Shown: piece by piece, positions 3,583 through 64,000 of the stretch
Numbering within the stretch: the stretch's first letter is position 1
Layout of the letters: each line of letters opens with the position of its first letter
Assembly: GCA_015665455.1 (NCBI GenBank)
Contig: JADFAD010000005.1
Location: 248,001 to 312,000, forward strand
DNA: 64,000 nt
Origin: Oceanospirillaceae bacterium
GTDB taxonomy: Bacteria; Pseudomonadota; Gammaproteobacteria; Pseudomonadales; Litoribrevibacteraceae
Reading direction: 5' to 3'
Position numbers and translations under genes: made by a program
Notes under the pieces: model-generated
Databases searched by the model: none
Seen by the model: only the letters and a program-made list of their open reading frames with translations
Told to the model about the DNA's origin: nothing

Positions 3583-5454
3583 TTAGAATGAGTAGCTTGC
3601 GCTCGCGTATACATTGTCACGATCATCAAGATCGTTGTAGTCAGCGTTGTTAAAGAATGCCGTGTAACCTGCAGAAATCTTATAAGCATTCAAATACAGA
3701 GCGTTAACACCCATATTTAAAGACATACGATCTTCAATGAACTGACTGCCTGGCTCAGGGCCATAACCATCAACATCGTGAGACCAAGCAAAGAACGGCT
3801 CTAAGTTCACACCAGCAAATGCGTTGTTATACTCTAATTTACCACGGACACGATAGCCCCATGACAACTCAGTTGTGTAACCATCTTGCGTACAATAGTC
3901 AGGGTTATCATTCGCACCTGTTGTACCAGTATCACCACATGCTGAGATGCCAGGGTAGGTATAAGCACCAATACCATAAGCACCTGAACGACCGAAGCGC
4001 GCGTCATTCTGATCAGGAAGATCTTTGACGTAAGTAGCACCAACCTCACCAGCTACCGTCAAACGACTTGCACCCAACACTTGATCAAAGAACTTAATAA
4101 CTGTCATCTGAGCTTGAACGATATCAAAACGGTCATAGCCTTCAACTCGCTGCCCCTGCAACTGCGTTAATTCATTAGACTCTAAACCATATTGCTTCTC
4201 TGCAATATCAATAGCCGCTACAGATGGTAAGCCAATTACGCCATGTACCAAATCAAACGCATTGTATTGAACAGGCACATCCATTTTATAGCTAACTTCA
4301 CCAGATACTGAATAACCAGACTCAGTACTGGTATTAAAGCTCACGCCCAGAAGTTTTATGTTTTCAGGGTAAGCAAGGTTAAAATAACCATAGTCAGTAC
4401 CATCCTGAAGAACCTGACCTTCAATCACAGGAATTTTATTATGGTACTGCATGTAATAAAGACCGAATTCAGTATCATTCAGCTCTTCAGCATAATAACG
4501 CACTGCTACACCAAATTGATCATTATCATCCGGCTCATTGTCTGCAGTATGAACCACCTGAGGTAATCCAGGAAGAGCACCACCACCAAGATACTCTTGG
4601 TCGTCAATCAAGCCATTTCCGTCAGTATCGTAAATAGCTGCTGTCGGTGTATTTGTGGTATCAACTGTAGATAGAAGTACGTTTCCACAATCAACATTAG
4701 TCGCAAAATCGATGGTCGAATAGAAAGTACCACATGGATCTACTTCGGTTTTACGCCACTTCCACTGCCAATACGCTTCAACAGATAACGCATCTGTCAA
4801 ACCAACCGACGCATACACCATCTCAACCGGTAGCAAAATATCTTTAACTTCTGCACCTGGAGTACGAGCAGCCGTTGCATCCACTGGGTTTGTACTGTTA
4901 ATACCACCCTGAATGAACGTACTTTCACCCCAGCTGATCACCTGCTTACCCACACGCAAGCTTACAGGCGTCTCATCTTCTCCAACGGATGTGTTCCACC
5001 AAACAAACGCATCAAGAAGATCAATATCAGAACCAGCATCATCACGTGCTGATGCACTCAAATTTTTATGTGAGCGATTTTCATCTTGCAATTCAAAATC
5101 ATAAAACGATTTAACACGAGAAAAAGCACCAAAATCACCATAACTGAACTCAATATCGTTCGTCATTGATAACTTCTTTGTATACGTATGGCCCTTTTCA
5201 AAGTTCAATGAACCATCGTCATAGTTATACGTAGCACCATCACCTGCGTTACCATCATAGTCAGTATTGGTACGAGCAACACGATCAGAATTAGGGTCTT
5301 CAGTTCTCCAAGCCGCACTCATTGAAACTGTAGTATCTACTTGAAGAGAACCTTCATCACCTACATCAAATTGAAGTGCAGAAGCTGAGAGAGATGCCGT
5401 TGCCATAGAAATAGCCACAGCAAGATCACGAGCCAAGAATTTTCTTTTTATCAT
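3583..5454 (-). CDS. DUF1302 outer-membrane barrel-like protein with an EF-hand loop
   Basis: 623 residues. A signal peptide ends near SLSASA-LQFD (about residue 27), and the protein ends in alternating aromatic/polar strands closing with YASASYSF, a terminal Phe typical of beta-barrel outer-membrane proteins. The N-terminal pattern (ALQFDVGDEGSLQVDTTVSMSAAWR) and the middle pattern LRVGKQVISWGES are typical of DUF1302. Residues 276-287 form a textbook 12-residue EF-hand calcium loop (D-x-D-G-N-G-x-I-D-x-x-E), close after a cysteine pair (Cys241, Cys256), in what is probably an extracellular loop. The start is ATG with AGGAG just upstream. It sits in the same run as DUF1329 and the lipase. 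I infer a pore or lipid-binding barrel; a catalytic role has not been excluded. Confidence 0.9.
   Translation of the reverse strand: MIKRKFLARDLAVAISMATASLSASALQFDVGDEGSLQVDTTVSMSAAWRTEDPNSDRVARTNTDYDGNAGDGATYNYDDGSLNFEKGHTYTKKLSMTNDIEFSYGDFGAFSRVKSFYDFELQDENRSHKNLSASARDDAGSDIDLLDAFVWWNTSVGEDETPVSLRVGKQVISWGESTFIQGGINSTNPVDATAARTPGAEVKDILLPVEMVYASVGLTDALSVEAYWQWKWRKTEVDPCGTFYSTIDFATNVDCGNVLLSTVDTTNTPTAAIYDTDGNGLIDDQEYLGGGALPGLPQVVHTADNEPDDNDQFGVAVRYYAEELNDTEFGLYYMQYHNKIPVIEGQVLQDGTDYGYFNLAYPENIKLLGVSFNTSTESGYSVSGEVSYKMDVPVQYNAFDLVHGVIGLPSVAAIDIAEKQYGLESNELTQLQGQRVEGYDRFDIVQAQMTVIKFFDQVLGASRLTVAGEVGATYVKDLPDQNDARFGRSGAYGIGAYTYPGISACGDTGTTGANDNPDYCTQDGYTTELSWGYRVRGKLEYNNAFAGVNLEPFFAWSHDVDGYGPEPGSQFIEDRMSLNMGVNALYLNAYKISAGYTAFFNNADYNDLDDRDNVYASASYSF
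4594..4629 (-). other. EF-hand calcium-binding loop within the DUF1302 protein
   Basis: Codons 276-287 encode DTDGNGLIDDQE. Positions 1, 3, 5, 9 and 12 carry D, D, N, D and E, the canonical calcium ligands, with Gly at position 6 and Ile at position 8. This is a full match to the EF-hand consensus. It sits in a non-conserved, probably surface-exposed insertion of the barrel. Confidence 0.7.
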
Positions 5455-5513: not shown

Positions 5514-8500
5514 TTAAGGTGTAGTTTGAGTTTCAATAACACTTGCGCCTGCACCGCTAGCAGCAGTACCAACCGCAACGGAATAACCTGGAACAGTAGC
5601 CCCACCCGACCCAGTAATTAAGCTCACAACCTGTGTAGCCATTTCAGAATCAACCAATTCAGGAGTAGTTAAAAAGCTACCCATACCAAAAGAACTGTGA
5701 GTTCCAGAAGTAAACCTCACAGCAACTTGAATAGGCGAAGAATCAATTGTTGTTGCATTAACATTAGTTAGATTCATGTTAGCAGTAAGAGGCTCTGTTC
5801 CAGCAAGAGGAGCAGGGAATGCCTGAGCACCACCAGTTAGAGCCGAACTATCAAGTGGAGCCGTCCGGTATATGTATGGCAAGTCAGTATCATCATCCGC
5901 ACCATTAGGCACAACCGTGTCATTTTCAACTTCTATGTGAAGAACACCAGTAGTAGAAGTCAGAACAGGACTGGAATAACCACTGGCAAGTGCCATAGGG
6001 TCTACCGAGTCAATGGTTGCCTGGAATATATTCATAAACGTCTCAAAGTTTCTAGACGTTTGAGTCAAGCTGCTTGCTGCAAGGCCTGGAATTAGGCTAG
6101 GAGCAAAAGACGGTGAGTTCTCAAGCAGTTTGGTTAGCTGACTACCACCATTTGCAAGTGTTGCGGTTTGAATGTGAGGCAGTGCATTGTTACCACAACC
6201 TAACGCATTTAATGACTGAACATCATCACTTGCAGCAACCGCAGCTACTGTACCTGCAGGGATTCCGTTATCAGCATCATCTTCAAGAGGCTGCAAGGTC
6301 TCAGAAATAAATGTTGAGGCATTATCACACGCCAAGTGATTTGAACCCAAAGCAGCAGTCAATGTGCCCTGAAACAATGCATTCAAACCAGCATTCCCCG
6401 TATCAAGCTGAGCAATAGCACCCAAAGCAATAAGGTTATTATTTACATTGTAATAGCCGACAGTGTTATTTACTGATACATATGAAGTACCAACAATAGA
6501 CCCTAGAGAGTGACCAACAAAATGAACTTGGCCAGCTGCCGTCGGAAGAGTTACATCTGCAGTATTTGCATCACTATCATGATCAATAGAAATATTGCCA
6601 AGAGATGCACCTAAGTTAAGTAAGTTCATTACTGATTGGCGCAAGTTGTCACGAGTGATCTGATGATGCAAAAGATAAACGAACATACTCCCCGATTCAT
6701 TCGATTCATCAGCTGTTTCTCCTGTTGGAGTTACAAAGATATCATTTCCTTCCGAGTCATCTTGACCAGAGTCTAAAGAGATATCTTCCGCACTTATCGC
6801 ACGAGGAGTTCTACCATCTGCACTTAAAGTCAAACCAAAGTGGTTTTCACTTAACATGTACTGACCAAGAACAGCAGTAGAATATGAGCTATAAATACTA
6901 GCGACAGTAGCATCAGCTAAGGCAGTAGGATCAGCATTCACTGCAGCAACTGTATTATTCACAGCAGTATCCGTTAAAGCGCCATTAGACCCTAAAACTA
7001 CTGCTGCAACAGCAGTGGCATCAACAACTGTTGAGCTAAGAGGGCTCAATTTAGCCCCTGTCGATGTGTAATCGATCAGCCCGTTACTATCAACAAAGTT
7101 GTCAGGTTCTAAACCATGTACAGCTAAATCCATAGCAACCACGGCATACCCTGCAGCAATCAACTGAGTCGATATTGGCGCAGAAACAGAGCGGTTAGTC
7201 GTGATCCCGTGCTGATAAATTACAGTACCTTGAATGTTATTCACATCCGCTGGTAAGTATACAGTTACAGGAGCGTCCAACGTTCCTGTTTCTGCAGCAA
7301 ATGGAAATAAACGAGTCACGTTAGTGGACGGCGCTGTTAGCGCAGAATTGTTCAAATCAGTTGCCAATGATGCATCAGACTGCCACTTTGCCGCCACAAC
7401 ATTTGCTGCTGTTAATTGCTCAACCGGGTCTGCTGCTGCAGTTAAATCTTGGTAAAAAGAAGGAGCTGTCAGATAATAAGGTAATGATACTGTACCAGCA
7501 TGTACAACAGCACCAAAACCTAAGTCTTGAGCACCAGCTTTCATCGTTACTGTACGTGCTTTAGGTGCAGGAAGATTACGCAGAGCTTCCACGCCAGCAG
7601 CCAAAGTAGCATCCCCACCAACAGCAGCTAGCAAATCATCACCTGTAAAGCTATCTAATGCATGATCTTGCTTTAATGCAGAATTAGCAACACCAGGTGC
7701 GGCCATCGCAGATAGAACTTCATTTGTTCCACCTGTAGTAAATGAATAAGACATTACTACAGCACTTGGAGTTGCAGCCGTAGCGGCTAACACTGCTGTT
7801 TGAGCTGTAGCAGCATCAACAATGCTTGTAGGGTCAACACCCAAATCAGTCAATAGACCTATATTCTCGTCACTTAAAGCCAAATCAGCCAAATCATTAG
7901 ATAATGCTGTAGCTACATAGCCAGAAGCTAATGACTCATAACCTTGAATTAAAGATCTAACACCATCCAATGCAACAGGAATAACCTCATCACCGCCAAT
8001 TGCATTATATTGATAACTAGGATTAACAGACTCACCAGAAGTAGTCTTAATACCATTAGTTAAGAAAACCATATATCGAGTCACCCCATCTAAGGGCTCT
8101 AATGGAGAAATCCTTAACACATTAACAGTATTTCCTTCAGCATCATTTTGCTCAAGTACTTCAGCTCTAAAGCTAACAGCACTACCAAAAGAATTGGCAA
8201 TTAACGTTGAATCAGTTGCAACGTCTGGATCAATGTATGCTAATTCAGCATTAGGACTCGCATCACTTGAAGCTAAACACTCAGAAACTGGATCTAAATC
8301 ACTACCTGAACTGTCTTGGCAAGGTTCCAACGGAACAAGAAATACAGTTCTATTTGCTATGACTGTATCTGCATCAATAGCACCAGAAAATGGCAAGTCG
8401 ATCTGCCCTGAGATTGATGCCCCATCCAAGTCAGCAATAGCGTTTGTAATAGGGTTAAACAAGGTGCCTGTTGTGTTTGTATCAGGATCAACAAATTTAA

Positions 8501-8771
8501 ATGAGTTTAGTGTTTCTCCTGAAAAAACTAGAGTCCCATCAGAAGTATCGCTATATAAGATATCATTAGGAATGGGAATAGCAGATGATGCAGGATCGTA
8601 AATAGGATAAGTACCTGGGTTGTCAATCAAATCAATAGAACCCTGATCAGCACCACGCTGATTAGGATTGCCACCATTAGAATCAACATCACCTGAACTA
8701 TCGGTACCGGAGCAGCCTGCGAGGCCTAGGCCCGCCGCAATCGCTAAACTCAGAAGGGATTTCTTCAACAT
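5514..8771 (-). CDS. Large lipoprotein lipase/esterase (VolA-like, bacterial virulence factor lipase family)
   Basis: About 1085 residues. A lipoprotein signal (MLKKSLLSLAIAAGLGLAGC) has lipobox LAGC. The N-terminal part (NPGTYPIYDPASSAIPIPNDILY..DTSDGTL) is the pattern of the bacterial virulence-factor lipase N-terminal domain, found in surface lysophospholipases such as Vibrio VolA. The alpha/beta-hydrolase part carries GHSLG with nucleophile Ser at about residue 755. Candidate acid (HIEVENDTVVP, about 950) and base (SGTHSSFG, about 1023) residues follow in the right order. I took ATG 8771 (AAGG upstream) over the TTG two codons earlier. As a surface lipase it would release fatty acids from phospholipid or ester substrates. 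It is the first gene of the run with DUF1302 and DUF1329. Substrate unknown. Confidence 0.85.
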   Translation of the reverse strand: MLKKSLLSLAIAAGLGLAGCSGTDSSGDVDSNGGNPNQRGADQGSIDLIDNPGTYPIYDPASSAIPIPNDILYSDTSDGTLVFSGETLNSFKFVDPDTNTTGTLFNPITNAIADLDGASISGQIDLPFSGAIDADTVIANRTVFLVPLEPCQDSSGSDLDPVSECLASSDASPNAELAYIDPDVATDSTLIANSFGSAVSFRAEVLEQNDAEGNTVNVLRISPLEPLDGVTRYMVFLTNGIKTTSGESVNPSYQYNAIGGDEVIPVALDGVRSLIQGYESLASGYVATALSNDLADLALSDENIGLLTDLGVDPTSIVDAATAQTAVLAATAATPSAVVMSYSFTTGGTNEVLSAMAAPGVANSALKQDHALDSFTGDDLLAAVGGDATLAAGVEALRNLPAPKARTVTMKAGAQDLGFGAVVHAGTVSLPYYLTAPSFYQDLTAAADPVEQLTAANVVAAKWQSDASLATDLNNSALTAPSTNVTRLFPFAAETGTLDAPVTVYLPADVNNIQGTVIYQHGITTNRSVSAPISTQLIAAGYAVVAMDLAVHGLEPDNFVDSNGLIDYTSTGAKLSPLSSTVVDATAVAAVVLGSNGALTDTAVNNTVAAVNADPTALADATVASIYSSYSTAVLGQYMLSENHFGLTLSADGRTPRAISAEDISLDSGQDDSEGNDIFVTPTGETADESNESGSMFVYLLHHQITRDNLRQSVMNLLNLGASLGNISIDHDSDANTADVTLPTAAGQVHFVGHSLGSIVGTSYVSVNNTVGYYNVNNNLIALGAIAQLDTGNAGLNALFQGTLTAALGSNHLACDNASTFISETLQPLEDDADNGIPAGTVAAVAASDDVQSLNALGCGNNALPHIQTATLANGGSQLTKLLENSPSFAPSLIPGLAASSLTQTSRNFETFMNIFQATIDSVDPMALASGYSSPVLTSTTGVLHIEVENDTVVPNGADDDTDLPYIYRTAPLDSSALTGGAQAFPAPLAGTEPLTANMNLTNVNATTIDSSPIQVAVRFTSGTHSSFGMGSFLTTPELVDSEMATQVVSLITGSGGATVPGYSVAVGTAASGAGASVIETQTTP

Positions 8772-8851
8772 ATGCAACCTTGTCTGACTTTTATGTTTAT
8801 CTTTATTGGAAAGCGGTGGCTATTCAGACCACTACGCACATAACATCACAA

Positions 8852-18020: not shown

Positions 18021-18689
18021 TTAACCTTGCGCCTCTAACTCTTTTGCTTCTAATTCTTTTGCTTCATTGATTGCTCTATCCAACTTCTCAATGATTGGTT
18101 GAATAAGATGATGCTTGTTTTTATACGCAGATTTACCTGCCACTAGACGGCTACTGATGTCTGCGATTTCTTCGAAGGGTTTTAAGCCATTCGCTCGTAG
18201 CGTATTACCAGTATCAACAATATCAACAATGCGATCCGCTAACCCCATAATAGGCGCCAACTCCATTGCACCGTACAATTTGATAATATCCACTTGGCGA
18301 CCTAACTCGGCATAGTATCGCTTGGTCACATTAACAAATTTAGTGGCTACCTTCAGACGCCCTTCTGGCTCAACATCATCAATTCCAGCCGTCATCAACT
18401 TGCAACGAGCAATATTTAAATCAACAAGCTCGTACATACCTTTACCACCATGCTCTAGAAGTACGTCTTTACCAGACACACCTAAATCAGCAGCACCCAG
18501 TTCTACGTAAGAAGGAACATCTGTAGCACGCAAGATCACGAAATTCACGCCAGGAACGTTTGTTTCAAAAATCAGCTTACGACTTGTGAAAATATCTTCA
18601 ATCGGTTCGATACCTGCAGCCTTTAACAATGGCAAGGTATCTTTCAAAATTCGCCCTTTAGAAAGAGCAATAGTTAGTGTCTGATCCAT
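18021..18689 (-). CDS. hisG: ATP phosphoribosyltransferase, short form
   Basis: 222 residues. This is the short HisG form, which lacks the C-terminal regulatory domain and needs the paralogue HisZ for activity and histidine feedback. hisZ is not in this window. It catalyses the first step of histidine synthesis (ATP plus PRPP). The PRPP-site sequence [13 protein letters not shown] is present. The C terminus carries a small tandem duplication, [10 protein letters not shown], from a 15-base direct repeat near 18045. It lies 17 bases after murA. Confidence 0.95.
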
Positions 18690-18706: not shown

Positions 18707-19975
<1,269 letters not shown>

Positions 19976-20038: not shown

Positions 20039-20269
20039 TTAACCAGCTTCCGCAGGTGTTAAAGCTTTAATCTTAACGGCGTGAATTGAACCATCTTGGA
20101 TCTGAGCATTCAGCGCTTTATATACAGCTTGTTGACGCTTAACGGCATTCAAGCCTTCAAACTGATCCGTGATCACAGCCACTTCAAAATGATAGCCATC
20201 CGTTGATGCATCTACTTCTGCCTCTGGGAATTCTGCCGCCAATAAAGCCTTAACCTCATCTACTTCCAT
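20039..20269 (-). CDS. ibaG: BolA-family protein IbaG (YrbA)
   Basis: 76 residues from ATG 20269, preceded by GAGG at eight bases; an upstream GTG at 20308 is less likely. BolA fold with the family pattern YHFEVAVITDQFEGLNAVKRQQAVY..LNAQI..GSIHAVKIKALTP. BolA proteins work with monothiol glutaredoxins in iron-sulfur handling; IbaG is the acid-responsive paralogue. It sits between mlaC and murA, where E. coli has mlaB-ibaG-murA. Confidence 0.93.
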   Translation of the reverse strand: MEVDEVKALLAAEFPEAEVDASTDGYHFEVAVITDQFEGLNAVKRQQAVYKALNAQIQDGSIHAVKIKALTPAEAG

Positions 20270-20401
20270 CACAACCTCAACTAACTTATTACTTATTCTC
20301 GGGGTCACCCTAAATAAATAATGTTTATCAACATGAACGCCCCGACTAATGATTCCATCAGACGAGGCTCTATTTATTCTTTAAAAACTTAAATCAGAAT
20401 T

Positions 20402-21112
20402 CTATTTCTGACCTAACTCAGACGGCAGCTTCCCGTCTTCTACTTCGATATCAAGCTTAGAAGACCAGTTTTTAACAACCAAACTTACATCTCCACCTGC
20501 TTCCGCAACTTTTCGAGCAAACTGCTGACGATACAACAATCCAACATTAATACCCGCAACGGTCACGTTTTGTACTTTCCAAACACCAGACTTGGTTCTG
20601 TACATGCTGTACTTCAAAGGTACCTGCGTGCCACTGGACGTTGTAATAACAACGTTAACAACGGCCGTCTTTTTACCTGCCGGAACCTCTGCACCCTGTT
20701 TAATGCTAATCTTATACCCTTCGTATTCAATTAGACCACCAGAGTACGTCTCAACCAAACTGCGCTGGAACGCATCAGAAAACTTTTTACGATCAGCCTT
20801 TGAGGACTTCTTATAATAAGACCCCATAACCATAGCCGCGATTCGTCTAAAACCAACAACGGGTTTTAGCGCCTCAGCTACACGATCAAAGAACTGATTT
20901 GGCGTCTGCTCATAGCTTTCGCGTTCTTCATCAATGATCTTAAGCAATATACGCGTTGTATCCCAGACTGATTTCTCTGGTCCCGTATACTCATTAACTT
21001 CAACGACACCATTAACTTCTTCAACAGGAGTCGTTGCACTGACTGCCTGAGTGCTGAATCCAAACCCAAGCATTGCAATAAATACTACAAAAAAACGAAC
21101 AATCTTAGTCAC
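20402..21112 (-). CDS. mlaC: Phospholipid-binding periplasmic protein MlaC (orphan in this locus)
   Basis: 236 residues from GTG 21112, which has AAGGAG seven bases upstream and directly opens a signal peptide (TKIVRFFVVFIAMLGFGFSTQAVSA). The mature part is MlaC/Ttg2D-like: PNQFFDRVAEALKPVVGFRRIAAMVMG, SDAFQRSLVETYSGGL, VWKVQNVTVAGINVGLLYRQQF. MlaC shuttles phospholipids between the outer-membrane MlaA complex and the inner-membrane MlaFEDB transporter. The genes for MlaF, E and D that normally precede it, and mlaB that normally follows, are all missing here; the next gene upstream is the divergent yrbG. Confidence 0.92.
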   Translation of the reverse strand: MTKIVRFFVVFIAMLGFGFSTQAVSATTPVEEVNGVVEVNEYTGPEKSVWDTTRILLKIIDEERESYEQTPNQFFDRVAEALKPVVGFRRIAAMVMGSYYKKSSKADRKKFSDAFQRSLVETYSGGLIEYEGYKISIKQGAEVPAGKKTAVVNVVITTSSGTQVPLKYSMYRTKSGVWKVQNVTVAGINVGLLYRQQFARKVAEAGGDVSLVVKNWSSKLDIEVEDGKLPSELGQK

Positions 21113-21355
21113 CAAGCTCTCCTTGTTTTCTTCGCCCGAACTGTCCCTACCCCACAGCCTAAGCATTGTAACATTCTTAACGGACTCTACTCTAGTCCAG
21201 CAAACCAAACTGTTTAACAAACCCTCTCCTTAAGCGTTAGCCAATTACTATTGAAAACTATACAATCACCGCCAGAATTTATTAGCTGGCACCAAAACCT
21301 AAAACATCAGCGTTTAAGGTTATGAACAACTGTTTTTAAACGGAAACCAACACAT

Positions 21356-22366
21356 ATGCTGCTCTATAACACCATTGCTATTATCTTAGGACTCATTACC
21401 CTGGTCTGGAGTTCAGATCAATTTGTAAATTCTGCAGCATCCACTGCACGTTTACTTGGAATGTCGACCTTAATGATTGGTTTGACCGTTGTAAGCTTTG
21501 GTACATCAGCGCCTGAAATCATGGTGGCCATAAGTTCCGCTTTGAACGACGCACCGGGTTTAGCAGTCGGCAATGCGGTCGGTTCTAACATCGCTAACAT
21601 CGGATTAGTGTTGGGGATAACCGCCATCGTTTGTGCTCTGCCTATTCGTTCAGGCTTAATACGAATTGAACTGCCTTTACTGTTGTTCGTTACTGCGGTT
21701 GCTGGCGTATTAATGTACGACTTACAGCTTACAATCATCGATGGCATTATTTTATTAGCATTAATGCCCGTCACTTTATTCATATTCCATAAGTTCTCTA
21801 ACCAGCAGGACGTTGAACATGATGCGGCGGAAAGTGAATTTGAAGAAGAGATTGCTGAACTTCCAAAAATGACACCATTAAAATCTTGGGGGCTTTTAGC
21901 GTTCAGTTTAGTGTTACTCATTGCCAGTGCTCAGGCGTTAGTATGGGGAGCATCAGGCATCGCTCGAGAATTTGGAATCAGCGAATTAGTCATCGGTCTA
22001 ACGATTGTCGCAATAGGCACCAGTCTTCCCGAATTAGCAGCATCCGTAGCCAGTGCAATCAAAGGCCATCACGACTTAGCCATTGGTAACATCATCGGCT
22101 CTAACTTGTTCAACCTTATGACCGTTCTATCCGTACCCGGATTAATTATCACCACGGATATAGAACCGGTAGGGTTCACCAGAGATTACTTTGTCATGCT
22201 GGCGCTTACGATAGCCCTTGCTGTATTTATCTTTATACAAGGCAAAACAAAAGTCACCACTGCAGGCACAACACAAAGCGGTCAGCTTACACGCTGGCAC
22301 GGTTTAATTTTCTTGGTTGGCTACACTGCTTACATGGTGCAGCTGTATTTAAGCAGCGTCAACTAA
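21356..22366 (+). CDS. yrbG: Calcium/sodium antiporter, CaCA family (YrbG)
   Basis: 336 residues, about ten membrane segments in two inverted halves. Each half carries the alpha-repeat signature: FGTSAPEIMVAISSAL followed by GNAVGSNIAN, and IGTSLPELAASVASAI followed by GNIIGSNLFN. An acidic cytoplasmic loop (about residues 143-170) separates the halves. It probably exchanges Na+ or K+ for Ca2+. It is the first gene of the run leading to kdsD and the lpt genes, in the same position as E. coli yrbG. Confidence 0.93.
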   Translation: MLLYNTIAIILGLITLVWSSDQFVNSAASTARLLGMSTLMIGLTVVSFGTSAPEIMVAISSALNDAPGLAVGNAVGSNIANIGLVLGITAIVCALPIRSGLIRIELPLLLFVTAVAGVLMYDLQLTIIDGIILLALMPVTLFIFHKFSNQQDVEHDAAESEFEEEIAELPKMTPLKSWGLLAFSLVLLIASAQALVWGASGIAREFGISELVIGLTIVAIGTSLPELAASVASAIKGHHDLAIGNIIGSNLFNLMTVLSVPGLIITTDIEPVGFTRDYFVMLALTIALAVFIFIQGKTKVTTAGTTQSGQLTRWHGLIFLVGYTAYMVQLYLSSVN

Positions 22367-22430: not shown

Positions 22431-23402
22431 ATGACAGATTTCGATTTTATTGCTTCAGCTAAAAGAACACTTTCCATTGAAGCTGATGCTGTTAATGAAC
22501 TTAATCAACGCCTTGGTTCTGACTTTACGACCGCGTGTACATTACTGTTAAATTGTAAAGGTCGAGTCGTCGTTACAGGCATGGGGAAATCGGGCCATAT
22601 TGGTAAAAAAATGGCGGCGACACTCGCCAGCACCGGAACACCATCATTCTTTGTTCACCCAGGTGAAGCAAGCCACGGCGACCTAGGCATGATTACACCT
22701 CACGATGTAGTCATTGCCCTTTCAAATTCAGGCAACACCAGCGAAGTTGTGACGATCCTACCGCTAATCAAACGTATGCAAGCTCCATTGATCAGCATCA
22801 CAGGGAATCCTGCATCGTCCATGGCAAAAGCCGCAGTTGTTAACCTAGACATATCAGTCAAAGAAGAAGCATGCCCTCTAGGCCTAGCGCCTACAGCAAG
22901 TACGACGGCAACATTAGCGATGGGAGATGCATTAGCCGTAGCACTTCTTGAAGCTAAAGGTTTCACAGCGGAAGACTTCGCTTTCTCTCATCCCGGTGGC
23001 GCACTCGGTCGCAGACTGTTATTGAAAGTGGAAGATTTAATGCACAAAGGGAAGGACATCCCAACGGTATCTCCTGAAACCCTAACCAAAGATGCCCTAT
23101 TGGAAATTACTCGCAAAAAATTAGGTATGACGGCGGTCGTTGAAGAGAATGGTAATCTAGTTGGCGTGTTTACCGATGGAGATTTGCGCCGAGTTCTAGA
23201 TAACGAAACGAATCTTCATACCACTCAGATAAAAGATGTAATGACTGCATCTGGCGTTAGCTGCCAACCCAATATTTTGGCAGCGGAAGCGCTTAGCATT
23301 ATGGAAAACAAATCCATTAACGGCTTATTCGTTACCGATGAAACTAATTCGATTGTTGGTGCTCTCAATATGCACGATCTTCTTAAAGCTGGCATCATGT
23401 AA
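22431..23402 (+). CDS. kdsD: D-arabinose 5-phosphate isomerase
   Basis: 323 residues. N-terminal SIS domain (MGKSGHIGKKMAATLASTGTPSFFVHPGEASHGDLGM) and two C-terminal CBS domains (about 205-323). It converts ribulose 5-phosphate to arabinose 5-phosphate, the first step to Kdo for lipopolysaccharide. Followed 21 bases later by kdsC. Confidence 0.96.
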   Translation: MTDFDFIASAKRTLSIEADAVNELNQRLGSDFTTACTLLLNCKGRVVVTGMGKSGHIGKKMAATLASTGTPSFFVHPGEASHGDLGMITPHDVVIALSNSGNTSEVVTILPLIKRMQAPLISITGNPASSMAKAAVVNLDISVKEEACPLGLAPTASTTATLAMGDALAVALLEAKGFTAEDFAFSHPGGALGRRLLLKVEDLMHKGKDIPTVSPETLTKDALLEITRKKLGMTAVVEENGNLVGVFTDGDLRRVLDNETNLHTTQIKDVMTASGVSCQPNILAAEALSIMENKSINGLFVTDETNSIVGALNMHDLLKAGIM

Positions 23403-31757: not shown

Positions 31758-31784
31758 CAGCAGAAATCAATGTTATTTCTGCTG
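31758..31784. repeat. Hairpin at the darP/yhdP convergent junction
   Basis: Perfect 10-base stem CAGCAGAAAT / ATTTCTGCTG with a 7-base loop, overlapping the yhdP stop codon. No U-run on either strand; it is at best a weak or Rho-assisted terminator. Confidence 0.5.
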
Positions 31785-34700
31785 GGTCCCAACCTTCAAA
31801 TTAGGCTCATCCCAAGTGCCCGTAATTTGATAATTCACCCCAACAAATTGATCAACCATCCCACCCCAAACTTGCTGACCAAGCAATAGTAGCCCCCCAA
31901 TGACTGGCGCGACCCCCGCGACTACCACCGCAATGGGAAGGGAACCACTCACTGGCACGGTCAAACGCATCTGAAGATCCAACGTCTCTTTCTCTAAGTT
32001 TGTTGTCCCAGATATAGACATTTGGGAGCTCGGCCCAACAATTGAAACCGGAGAAAGCGTATCAAGCATCTCATTATTAACGGATAATTCAGCAGAGACC
32101 TCATCAAATGCTAAACCAGAGGAATACACATCACTAAAATCTAATTTCAAGCGCCGACTTAGAGAGCTTAAGTTAAATAAACCAAACACTTTAAGGGTAT
32201 TTGCAGATTCACTTACGTTAAGAAACGCCCCATCTTCCACGGATAAGTCCACCAGTCCTTGAGTTCTTAAACGATCAAATGAGGCCGGGCTGCCATCCCA
32301 ATATATATAAGTATCAAAATTGGTGGATTTACTACGAATTGTAGGCTCATACCCCAATCTCTTTGAGACATCACTAACATCATCAGCATGAAGCATTCCG
32401 TCAACAAACGTTGTGTGATGGCCATTAATCAGTGTCCACCAGAGCTTACCTTTCACATCAAAGCCGAGAGCACTGGAATCATCCAAAGTAAGTAATGTTC
32501 CCTTTTCAATTGGCTTAAACTCACCACGCCAAACGCCTAAATCCTTACCATCCATTAATAGTTGGCGAATCCTTACATCCATTGCTGGTATTGTAGAAGG
32601 GTCTAAACCACCGAGAGGATCTCTCGTAATGTCATAAGGCTCAGCCTTAGCAACTGGAGTTTTTTCATCAAATTCGTTAGTAACCGGATCATCTTTGGAC
32701 CCGACCAAAGTCAAATAATCCAAATCGACCTGAATAATTTCATCTGAGCTTTTAGGAATTTTTATGGTGCCAGCCAACTGCCTAGAGCGAATGGAAACCC
32801 GATGCCCAAAGCCCGACGAGGATGAGGTTAAAGATAAATTGTCTAATTGCTGCTCCCCCAACAACCCTTTCTGAATGGCCACATCAGCGTAGACAGCAAC
32901 CTCTTCCGACTCAGCAGAAGAATCCATCCCGCCAAAAATCTCTAACCAAGACTTAATATCGAATTGAGCTAGGCGAGCAAATATGAACAGACCTTGGTCT
33001 GGAACACGAGACTCTTTAGGTAATCGACCAAATGAAACCACAGTACGATCAATCTTTTCTTTCGGTTTTTGGATGAAATCGATATTCAAGGCACCGACAT
33101 CCACCGAGTGCTCGGTCACCTCCTCACTGACCTTACCTTGATAAACAAAGATTAATTTACTCTTTGGATCTTCTTTAACCATCGGGTATGGCAATGTAGA
33201 AACAACGCCCGCCATGTCAGATCGAACATCAACGTCTACGTTTCCACCTTCTGATATCTCAGCATCAAAATAATAATCAACGTTGCCCTGCAAATTGTCA
33301 TTTAGACTCGCAGGTAGAGCCTGCCAAGCCAACAAAGGTTCAATCTCTGCATTACCTCGCCCCTTCACATGGAATCGATCTTCAATCGACTTCAACGTTA
33401 GGCTAACAGGCCCATTTAAAGTCTTCCCCTGCAACTTAGGGATAAAGAGCTGATCCGTATCATTAAAATGGATGTCACCTTGAATATCAGTAATCAAAGG
33501 AAGGTTAGGCATTTGAACTTTGCTTTCTTGAGGTGTAATCACAACATCAATGTTGGACACCTCTGTCGTATCCAAATCAAATGAAAAATTAACCCCCAGT
33601 TGTCCTTCTCCTTCAATGGACCAGTCTTGCAAGGCCTCCCCAATTGTTTCTTGTAAGGGTGATTGCTTAATAAACCGTAAATAGCGATCAAAGCGTGATT
33701 CAGACGCCAAAGACACATTCAACTGAAAGGCATCCTCAGACCATATATCGGGGTAGTTAACACGCAAGTTACGGAACGGATTCGTCAAGGTTGTTCCGTT
33801 CGTTAACAGAGCGTTTAATTCATCATTAGTTAATTCAAAGTGCCCTTCAACTTGATCCAATTTAGGCCATGATGAATCATATTCGAATGAGCTTGCTTTT
33901 AAGTCAGTATCAATAAGCAGAGTATCTTCAACAGGCACAACAGGATCAATCGTCGAGGTAAAAAGCAGCCGCCCGTTGGTGACTGAAGTATCCTTTAACG
34001 CGGTCTGCGTCCAAGATAATAGTGCGGGTTCAAGGTCTATTGGTAGGTACTCAACAATCTGACCTGAATCTCCCCGCTCAATATAAACATCCAACCCTAA
34101 ACGCGCCTCATCGGCTGGCATCTCCAGCTCGAATGAAAAACCGACATTTGCATCAATGACGGGGGATGCTAAAGAGACACCATCACTCGACACTTGAATG
34201 ACATCATCGTCATACCACCATTCAACTCGCCCTTTGGCCAGATCAAATAACTTACCTTCAGCAAATACCTCAGGGAACGTCAAAGTTACGGATGACGAGT
34301 CAAACTCAAGGTACCCTTGGTCTTGCTCTATAACCAACTTACCCGTTAAGTTCGTTGCGCCAGGCGCCCCTTCCCAAGGCAATGCAGATATCGCTTCCAC
34401 ATCCGTTTCAAGTCGAAATTCCCCGCCCGTATTCAGCCAGAGTACAGGGTGATGGAGAATCCCCGAGGGAGACAAGGTTGAAATGTCGTTTTTTAATACT
34501 TCTTCGCTTTCTGGTAACCAACCAACCACAGACGCCAATTCTTCCAAATAAAGGACTGGCGTAGTCCACCACCAATTCCCTTGGTAGTCGCATAAAACCC
34601 GATGCGCGTTACTGGTCTTTAATTCATTATTTACAAGAACACTGCTTTCAGGAATATTTATAGAACAATAGTTTTCATTAAATGAACCTGATACCAAGAG

Positions 34701-35615
34701 CTCATCTGAAGATACAATCAAACTGCGGCCGTCTTCTTGATTACGGACAGTCAAATCAGCAAGATTCGTCTGACTCACAAACTCCAAACCCGAATATGAC
34801 CAGTTGATCCAAGTTCTTACTGAAGTCGCTAAGCGATCAATTTGATAGGCTTCTGACACCTCAATTCGATCCGTCCAATCCAATGAATCAAGATCATCGA
34901 CTTCTACGAATAAATCAAAATTGAAATCTGGCTCACCAGGAAGATGAATCGCTTCTCCTCGAAAAGACAGATCTATTGGGTTTCTACTTCCCTGAATTTC
35001 ACCGTCAACTCGAGTATGATCGCCTAACTTAGAGACCAACAAATCCAACTCAACGGCTCGATCAAAAGGTGCATCCGAATGATATAAATGAACCAATGCT
35101 CCGCGAATATCAATATTTCCTTGATAAAATAGAAGATCGACCCAACGATTGATTTCAATGCTGTCATCCGTTGTCACCTGAGTATCTGGCGTAACCAAAC
35201 CATCCAAAGACCAAGTCCAATCGTCTTTCTGCCTGACTGTTAACTCTAGGCTATCGATTACAACGTCATTTAATACGGGTCTGAAATACCAAATAGACTT
35301 TAAGGTATTCAATTCAATGATGACATTTTTAGCTTTTGCTAGAGATACACCAGACGCTTGATGCACCACCTTTAAATCGGTAAAAGCAAGCAGAGGGTTT
35401 ACACCCGACATCTGATTATGGGTACTTGAAAATGCCAAGTCGTATCCTGACTCGGTCTCCATCCACAGCTCAATATCTTTGCTGTAACGGTTATAGCCCC
35501 ACAATAAAACTTGGGCTAACGACCAAGAAACCATAAAAACAATGGTACACAAGAAAAATAACAACCATAACCAGCGTTCTATTTTTCTCGTGATGGATGA
35601 AAGCGGAAGCGCCAT
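31773..35615 (-). CDS. yhdP: AsmA-like outer-membrane lipid transport protein YhdP
   Basis: 1280 residues, typical family length. One N-terminal membrane helix (about 15-38) is followed by a very long beta-rich periplasmic region with the repeating-beta-groove character of AsmA-like proteins, and a C-terminal domain containing SGTTNLEKETLDLQMRLTVPVSGSLP. YhdP, with TamB and YdbH, moves phospholipid to the outer membrane in E. coli. It starts three bases after the rng stop and is the last gene of the mre-maf-rng run. tldD, which often follows, is absent here. Confidence 0.94.
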   Translation of the reverse strand: MALPLSSITRKIERWLWLLFFLCTIVFMVSWSLAQVLLWGYNRYSKDIELWMETESGYDLAFSSTHNQMSGVNPLLAFTDLKVVHQASGVSLAKAKNVIIELNTLKSIWYFRPVLNDVVIDSLELTVRQKDDWTWSLDGLVTPDTQVTTDDSIEINRWVDLLFYQGNIDIRGALVHLYHSDAPFDRAVELDLLVSKLGDHTRVDGEIQGSRNPIDLSFRGEAIHLPGEPDFNFDLFVEVDDLDSLDWTDRIEVSEAYQIDRLATSVRTWINWSYSGLEFVSQTNLADLTVRNQEDGRSLIVSSDELLVSGSFNENYCSINIPESSVLVNNELKTSNAHRVLCDYQGNWWWTTPVLYLEELASVVGWLPESEEVLKNDISTLSPSGILHHPVLWLNTGGEFRLETDVEAISALPWEGAPGATNLTGKLVIEQDQGYLEFDSSSVTLTFPEVFAEGKLFDLAKGRVEWWYDDDVIQVSSDGVSLASPVIDANVGFSFELEMPADEARLGLDVYIERGDSGQIVEYLPIDLEPALLSWTQTALKDTSVTNGRLLFTSTIDPVVPVEDTLLIDTDLKASSFEYDSSWPKLDQVEGHFELTNDELNALLTNGTTLTNPFRNLRVNYPDIWSEDAFQLNVSLASESRFDRYLRFIKQSPLQETIGEALQDWSIEGEGQLGVNFSFDLDTTEVSNIDVVITPQESKVQMPNLPLITDIQGDIHFNDTDQLFIPKLQGKTLNGPVSLTLKSIEDRFHVKGRGNAEIEPLLAWQALPASLNDNLQGNVDYYFDAEISEGGNVDVDVRSDMAGVVSTLPYPMVKEDPKSKLIFVYQGKVSEEVTEHSVDVGALNIDFIQKPKEKIDRTVVSFGRLPKESRVPDQGLFIFARLAQFDIKSWLEIFGGMDSSAESEEVAVYADVAIQKGLLGEQQLDNLSLTSSSSGFGHRVSIRSRQLAGTIKIPKSSDEIIQVDLDYLTLVGSKDDPVTNEFDEKTPVAKAEPYDITRDPLGGLDPSTIPAMDVRIRQLLMDGKDLGVWRGEFKPIEKGTLLTLDDSSALGFDVKGKLWWTLINGHHTTFVDGMLHADDVSDVSKRLGYEPTIRSKSTNFDTYIYWDGSPASFDRLRTQGLVDLSVEDGAFLNVSESANTLKVFGLFNLSSLSRRLKLDFSDVYSSGLAFDEVSAELSVNNEMLDTLSPVSIVGPSSQMSISGTTNLEKETLDLQMRLTVPVSGSLPIAVVVAGVAPVIGGLLLLGQQVWGGMVDQFVGVNYQITGTWDEPNLKVGTQQK

Positions 35616-63770: not shown

Positions 63771-64000
63771 ATGGGCAGAGAAATCAATAACGCACAGTAC
63801 GCCAATCTACTTTTATGTCCCGATTGCGACTTACTGATCGACAAGGTGACTTTATCGCCCAATGAAACCGCTGTGTGCTCTCGTTGCCAAGCCAAAGTAC
63901 TCAGGCACCCAAAAAACAGCGTAAACAAAGTCATCGCCTTTGCATTGGCGGGCTTATTATTCTACCTGCCGGCTAATTTCTTACCCATTATGTCGTTTGA
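63771..64000 (+). CDS. PqiA-like inner-membrane protein (5' part only)
   Basis: The first 76 codons are visible. A pair of CxxC motifs (Cys16/Cys19 and Cys36/Cys39) forms a rubredoxin-like zinc ribbon, then a membrane segment starts near residue 53 (IAFALAGLLFYLPANFLPIM), the classic PqiA/YebS start. PqiA works with MCE proteins PqiB/YebT in lipid transport. The gene continues past the right edge; a pqiB-like MCE gene would be expected downstream. Confidence 0.9.
   Translation, partial: MGREINNAQYANLLLCPDCDLLIDKVTLSPNETAVCSRCQAKVLRHPKNSVNKVIAFALAGLLFYLPANFLPIMSF

Follow-up and report, generated by a model that had tools for sequence, protein, structure and literature searches.

We propose that the lineage represented here has lost the MlaFEDB transporter and has kept MlaA and MlaC, under selection, as a module that works without it, a reading to which we give a probability of roughly 0.6. 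The window, i.e., the whole stretch of 64,000 nucleotides that was analysed, spans positions 248001-312000 of contig C4 in a 4.85 Mb genome (G000) of 17 contigs with a listed completeness of 100%. MlaC has been described as the carrier for MlaFEDB, and both the direction and the energy source of Mla transport have been disputed.

Based on Pfam matches and gene order, the minus strand around 20 kb reads mlaC, ibaG, murA, hisG and hisD, and the plus strand, divergent from the mlaC side, carries yrbG, kdsD, kdsC, lptC, lptA and lptB (Table 1). The lptC gene is supported by Pfam and the hisD, lptA, kdsC-type and lptB-type families likewise by profile matches, the names kdsC and lptB being given by family match plus position. 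At the corresponding site, between yrbG and ibaG, E. coli K-12 holds mlaF-mlaE-mlaD-mlaC-mlaB. The first-pass annotation had described yrbG, mlaC, ibaG and murA as in place and mlaF, mlaE, mlaD and mlaB as missing from the locus, and Pfam searches together with the sequence of the yrbG-mlaC-ibaG locus bear this out: none of the four genes was found there, the mlaC-yrbG gap is too small for mlaFED and the mlaC-ibaG gap is too small for mlaB. The 243 bases that it had counted between mlaC and yrbG hold with the likely mlaC start, a GTG at 21112 that follows a GGAG-type site; a TTG at 21115 is also possible, and the end of the originally noted feature, 21355, takes in the mlaC-yrbG gap. Its yhdP gene and its pqiA-like gene across the right edge were likewise recovered by profile, the latter with PF04403 matches at C4:311924-312385 and 312583-313050, and a multi-MCE PqiB-like gene lies just past that edge (PF02470 at C4:313248-314486). 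In a scan with MurA, the nearest relatives, at 74-76% identity, were from Oceanospirillum, Neptuniibacter, Marinobacterium and Marinobacter. Elsewhere in the window, a 1087-aa frame with a TTG start and no Pfam match (5514-8777, minus strand) adjoins a DUF1302 gene (3583-5454, minus strand).

Table 1. Features of the mlaC locus and of possible alternative lipid routes, in window coordinates.
Feature	Position	Strand	Basis or remark
mlaC, predicted periplasmic phospholipid carrier of ~236 aa	20402..21112	-	Pfam MlaC 3.3e-37; phmmer; AF2 model
mlaC-yrbG gap, 243 bases	21113..21355	.	site of mlaF-mlaE-mlaD in canonical loci
mlaC-ibaG gap, 132 bases	20270..20401	.	site of mlaB in most canonical loci
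ibaG, BolA family, start inferred at internal ATG	20039..20269	-	Pfam BolA 3.8e-15
murA	18707..19972	-	Pfam EPSP_synthase 8e-122; at most 76% identity to MurA of named relatives
hisG	18021..18689	-	Pfam HisG 1.6e-51; conserved order
yrbG, Na/Ca exchanger family	21356..22366	+	Pfam Na_Ca_ex 4.1e-65
kdsD	22431..23402	+	Pfam SIS 7.4e-33, CBS 1.9e-21
yhdP, AsmA-like protein, possible alternative lipid route	31773..35615	-	Pfam YhdP (PF13116) 1.4e-178
pqiA-like gene, start of first PqiA domain, cut by window edge	63924..64000	+	PF04403

By family and modelled fold, the protein in the window is a genuine MlaC, and lipid binding is predicted for it. It matches the Pfam MlaC family (PF05494) with 128.3 bits, the cut-off being 26, over profile positions 4-157 of 166. 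Among solved structures, a phmmer search of the PDB gave as best relatives the Ttg2D/MlaC proteins of Pseudomonas putida and P. aeruginosa (4fcz, 4.4e-26), ahead of E. coli MlaC. An AlphaFold (AF2) model built with 16 relatives has a mean pLDDT of 81.6, with residues 1-39 low, and matches 4fcz with Z 23.3 and 2.1 Å over 180 residues and E. coli 5uwa with Z 19.7. The top 12 structure matches of the model are MlaC or related phospholipid-binding proteins (Z 14.6-23.3), and the next row falls to Z 8.5.

The search was extended to the whole genome. MlaE (PF02405) gave no match in the 17 contigs and none in one other genome of the family, whereas the MlaE-bearing genomes of the order have best E-values mostly between 1e-65 and 1e-78, with a few weaker. 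The nine MCE matches (PF02470) all fall within two multi-MCE frames, 775 and 558 aa in length, each adjoining two PqiA domains, which makes one LetAB-like and one PqiAB-like machine; a single-MCE MlaD was absent from this genome-wide search. MlaA gave one match (PF04333, 2.3e-74, C7:200683-201273), a predicted outer-membrane lipoprotein by family, and MlaC also one (C4:268489-268956), so that the copy in the window is not the duplicate of an mlaC within a full operon elsewhere. As neither MlaE nor a single-MCE MlaD occurs in the genome, the transporter was lost and not moved, as far as an assembly of 17 contigs allows; MlaF and MlaB, members of generic families, are absent from the locus. The first-pass annotation had offered two histories, a deletion that left MlaC behind and a transporter that had moved; the former is supported by these searches, and the latter was rejected for this genome. 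Relocation fits a few relatives, namely G033, G106, G109, G160 and G222, in which mlaC is lone and an MlaE match lies outside the stretch read. These five genomes and the division of G000 into 17 contigs speak for a transporter that is present here and was missed, having moved, diverged too far or fallen into an assembly gap. We consider this very improbable, in view of the strength of the MlaE matches elsewhere in the order, their absence from both G000 and its sister, the listed completeness, and three single-contig assemblies (G048, G221 and G241) that are MlaE-less and MCE-less as well.

We then surveyed 244 genomes of the same order, drawn evenly, for MlaE, MlaC, MlaA and MCE. The families were present in 137, 226, 223 and 173 genomes, respectively, with the MlaE count being an upper bound for the Mla transporter, since some MlaE matches lie in ~400-aa frames that may belong to other MCE transporters. 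All four families occur together in 134 genomes, MlaC and MlaA without MCE in 50, and MCE, MlaC and MlaA without MlaE in 35; 14 genomes have none of the four, four have only MlaC (one of these, G128, by a doubtful match below the family cut-off), three have only MlaA, three have MlaE, MCE and MlaC without MlaA, and one has only MCE and MlaA. MlaC without MlaE was thus found in 89/244 genomes and MlaE without MlaC in 0/244. Among the 107 MlaE-less genomes, 85 have both MlaC and MlaA, four MlaC only, four MlaA only and 14 neither (Fisher p 6.5e-11, a value that ignores relatedness, the counts being genomes and not independent events). For the 95 MlaE-less genomes with a listed completeness of at least 90%, the corresponding numbers are 78, 4, 1 and 12. 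MlaA and MlaC are therefore kept or lost together in MlaE-less genomes. Of the 14 genomes without either protein, 11 belong to families f35 and f39; G144 and G226, two of these 14, reach 70% completeness at most. In a class sample of 143 genomes, counted by eye, 17 lacked MlaE and 12 of these had MlaC (11/141 outside the order); the state of MlaC without MlaE is rarer outside the order. The opposite state, MlaE without MlaC, was seen in nine of the 143 class genomes (G244, G248, G266, G269, G294, G296, G335, G342 and G363).

The lone mlaC is recurrent across the order and stands at the ancestral ibaG-murA position. The 89 MlaE-less genomes with MlaC yielded 81 loci for reading, one of them the window and 80 fetched, with eight genomes left out; 75 of the 81 show a lone mlaC followed by ibaG, with Mla transporter genes missing. 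On the other side, yrbG or kdsD is found in 71 of the 75, and of the four without, L091 ends at a contig end; the remaining six of the 81 loci are in other contexts or on short contigs. Within 3 kb of mlaC, 74 lone loci showed no MlaB, MlaD, MlaE or MlaF label, the MlaB profile being weak, as it labelled MlaB in only 30 of 35 canonical loci. The mlaC-ibaG gap of the lone loci has a median of 72.5 bases and ranges from -151 to 3078. A hand-chosen, non-random comparison set of 55 MlaE-bearing loci from 53 genomes comprised 35 canonical, 13 'other', five lone and two unassigned loci; the five lone include L138 (G022), a miscall that arose because its MlaD went undetected. L077 and L167 are included in the locus counts. 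Of the 35 fetched canonical loci, 30 carry ibaG or murA downstream. The MurA scan added 80 named loci, of which 66 are canonical, 11 were called lone, one is cut and two have no mlaC; L234 (Pseudomonas mangiferae) has MlaE labelled, bringing the true lone count to 10/80, and some of these loci are probably assemblies already among our sampled genomes (e.g., L230 and L051). Named lone loci include those of Kineobactrum sediminis, Halovibrio salipaludis, two Pseudohongiella MAGs and one Alcanivorax MAG. In L239 (Pleionea mediterranea), yrbG stands directly beside ibaG and the mlaC label between them is missing.

The usual neighbours in the 81 MlaE-less mlaC loci are yrbG/kdsD, ibaG, murA, hisG and hisD, and no new partner gene beside mlaC stood out by eye. 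In family f38 (L066, L148, L162, L165 and L168), mlaC lies away from ibaG-murA, upstream of a gene of ~800 aa, and MlaE, where found, is elsewhere than mlaC. The ~800-aa gene was considered as an RND partner and rejected, as it encodes a GGDEF/EAL protein in L168, where the next gene is MutY-like and a his gene is near. Family f28 (L140, L160, L164 and L179) has both MlaC and MlaE, at a great distance from each other or on separate contigs.

Seven proteins of the locus were used for a tree with 110 tips and several weak deep nodes, which placed G000 and its sister in a group with the canonical G037, G102 and G130 (support 0.978), apart from a large MlaE-less clade. By parsimony, the state 'mlaFED at the mlaC locus' requires at least seven changes at equal costs, or 10-11 losses if regain is barred. 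Since the tree was built from genes of one locus, transfer of the whole locus would stay hidden in it.

In this genome, a Porin_4 gene (5.7e-48) lies on the upstream side of mlaA, in line with MlaA acting in a porin complex; downstream come genes for a PilZ protein, for a response regulator that carries a SpoIIE phosphatase domain and for a STAS-domain protein. A porin gene directly upstream of mlaA was seen in L177 and L178 (G000 and G001) and also in L292, L301 and L309 (cluster c13). A comparison of the mlaA neighbourhoods of 25 MlaE-less and 20 MlaE-bearing loci showed response-regulator and STAS genes downstream of mlaA in both sets. Four gene clusters were more frequent near mlaA in MlaE-less loci, namely a TerB-family gene and a DUF2063 gene (each 17/25 versus 2/20), an MbnB/TglH/ChrH-type gene (16/25 versus 1/20) and a short gene without Pfam match (13/25 versus 2/20); example positions for the TerB-family gene and the DUF2063/MbnB-type gene pair are L186:10255-10704 and L187:10227-11869. 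All four are absent from the mlaA stretches of G000 and its sister, and the enrichment may reflect one large MlaE-less clade that is the source of many of the loci. Wherever it was read, the C-terminal tail of MlaA has a net negative charge, with a median of -10 over 25 MlaE-less genomes and of -7 over 20 MlaE-bearing ones. The acidic tail of E. coli MlaA is described as recruiting MlaC (PMC10719372; PMC10245069), and the tail of MlaA in this genome, 24 residues with a net charge of -8, is a candidate for the same role.

We compared 74 lone and 35 canonical MlaCs in an alignment numbered on E. coli MlaC. Mean conservation is equal (0.406 in lone and 0.405 in canonical proteins, r 0.85), and E. 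coli positions 78, 93, 161, 180, 181 and 197 are M, F, W, Q, F and W in all 74 lone MlaCs, these six being stricter in lone than in canonical proteins, except for 161. The largest drops in conservation among lone MlaCs are at positions 83, 66, 80, 175 and 142. In E. coli, position 80 and the 141-145 loop are reported to face MlaD (PMC11289387). Lysine or arginine is found at position 80 in 31/74 lone versus 29/35 canonical MlaCs and at position 83 in 41/74 versus 33/35; the single positions 80, 83, 142 and 147 lose conservation in lone MlaCs, and 153 goes the opposite way. Taken as a set, the MlaD-facing positions defined from the literature are not significantly relaxed in lone MlaCs (p 0.092), either in the MCE-free (p 0.084) or in the MCE-bearing subgroup (p 0.16). 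An insertion between E. coli positions 82 and 89, of ~13 residues in aligned examples (e.g., L064, L107 and L111), is present in 28/74 lone versus 1/35 canonical MlaCs and lies beside the MlaA/MlaD docking site. Because the set gives p 0.092, the footprints of MlaA and MlaD on MlaC are reported to overlap (PMC10245069) and the insertion is close by, relaxation of the MlaD-facing surface of lone MlaCs is only suggestive. Net charge of MlaC segments, compared by uncorrected p-values that ignore phylogeny, was lower in lone than in canonical proteins for residues 75-90 (2.01 versus 3.00, p 0.0044) and differed in the opposite direction for residues 141-153 (0.54 versus -0.09, p 0.014), with no significant difference for residues 66-92 (p 0.49) or 168-190 (p 0.3). 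In the MlaC of the window, positions 83 and 84 are lysine and position 90 is arginine; the published patch is named K84/R90, and its lysine is residue 83 in the K-12 sequence analysed.

These patterns bear on whether MlaC and MlaA are leftovers of a pathway that has been lost, or whether MlaC now serves some unrelated function. In favour of this reading, the 14 MlaE-less genomes that lack both proteins indicate that the pair is dispensable in some lineages. However, the mlaC frames are open and in place across the order, the six core residues are identical in every lone MlaC, MlaC is retained jointly with MlaA, the acidic tail of MlaA is kept, and the state recurs on the tree. We therefore regard the pair as relics, or MlaC as diverted, as improbable.

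A further alternative is that MlaC in this genome has been rewired to PqiAB or LetAB, giving phospholipid to one of these machines or taking it from there. Both kinds of machine are encoded in G000, and 35 MlaE-less genomes with MlaC and MlaA carry MCE machines; in addition, the loss of conservation at positions 66, 80, 83, 142 and 147 is weaker in MCE-bearing than in MCE-free lone MlaCs, two groups of unequal size and diversity. However, the pqi- and let-like genes are 43-46 and 172-175 kb from the mlaC match and thus unlinked to it, the tunnels that PqiB and LetB build do not depend on a soluble carrier, and MlaA and MlaC are both retained in 50 genomes of the order in which MCE proteins went undetected. 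When these 50 were re-searched for MCE at E-values up to 10, 16 gave some match and none exceeded the cut-off, the best E-value being 0.009; 44 of them have a completeness of at least 90% and a contamination of no more than 5%. PqiA (PF04403) served as an independent control: each of 21 MCE-bearing MlaE-less genomes examined gave a strong match. Among 53 MCE-less genomes, i.e., the 50 plus G009, G031 and G123, PqiA is absent in 47, and the other six (G012, G032, G053, G114, G141 and G206) have weaker, PqiA-like matches of 4e-21 to 1e-14. Unless an MCE protein lies beyond profile detection, MlaC cannot be using another one in the 50 genomes. Another MCE partner is then unnecessary for retention and is no general answer, and for this genome itself we hold rewiring to be unlikely. 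The different MCE partner proposed in the first-pass annotation thus stands as a possibility here, where PqiAB- and LetAB-like genes exist, and is not needed for the 50 of 244 genomes that retain the pair in the MCE-free state.

Our preferred reading, loss of MlaFEDB with MlaA and MlaC retained as a working module, can be laid out as follows. MlaA at the outer membrane, its gene beside a porin gene, and the soluble carrier MlaC, encoded at the ancestral ibaG-murA locus, would be the half of the pathway that is retained, the outer one. Through its acidic C-terminal tail, MlaA would still recruit MlaC, which would take up or deliver phospholipid at MlaA. At the inner membrane, MlaC would exchange phospholipid in the absence of MlaFEDB, either directly with the bilayer or via a non-MCE partner; for this genome, PqiAB or LetAB may take that part. 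YhdP is a candidate acceptor solely because this lipid route is present in the window. In the E. coli work of PMC11289387, MlaC is reported to have high lipid affinity, and acceptor liposomes without MlaFEDB gave a much attenuated signal; passive delivery gets no support from that assay as described, so lone MlaCs would unload differently or a non-MCE acceptor would exist. In a broader form, MlaA and MlaC would be a self-standing, MCE-free pair for lipid exchange between the two membranes; loss of MlaFEDB would have given rise to it repeatedly, and it would operate without the Mla ATPase, passively or with a non-MCE partner, e.g., an AsmA-like protein; we see the chances of this broader form as evenly balanced.

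Genomes with MlaA and MlaC and without MlaFEDB, some of them without any detectable MCE protein, are natural experiments on the pathway. They indicate that the carrier and the outer-membrane channel merit retention by themselves, and the loading and unloading of MlaC without a transporter becomes directly testable in them. Grasekamp 2023, who sampled three species per order, describes MlaEFD as the ancestral core to which MlaABC was added later and reports that systems without MlaA and MlaC exist (PMC10665443). In the literature searched, no description of MlaA and MlaC without MlaFEDB was found, although single cases may stand in the supplementary dataset of PMC10665443; against that literature the reverse state, MlaA and MlaC kept without MlaEFD, appears new, with Mla itself being known.

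Compared with the Mla systems of E. coli, Acinetobacter and Pseudomonas (MlaA-OmpC/F, MlaC and MlaFEDB), the system described here has the same MlaC family and fold, an acidic-tailed MlaA, a porin-adjacent mlaA and the ancestral mlaC neighbourhood; in contrast to the canonical arrangement, MlaE and MlaD are absent from the genome and MlaF and MlaB from the locus. The minimal MlaEFD of Veillonella parvula, as described in PMC10665443, is likewise a reduced Mla system and is the mirror image of ours, with MlaEFD kept and MlaA and MlaC missing, whereas here MlaA and MlaC are kept and MlaE and MlaD are missing. The chimeric Mla-Pqi system Mpc of Brucella also recombines Mla parts in a manner unlike E. 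coli; unlike the present case, it is described as keeping an MCE system, with no MlaC homologue detectable (PMC12436622). LetAB and PqiAB are MCE lipid-transport machines, and relatives of both are encoded in this genome; however, they are unlinked to mlaC here and undetected in many relatives that share the lone mlaC.
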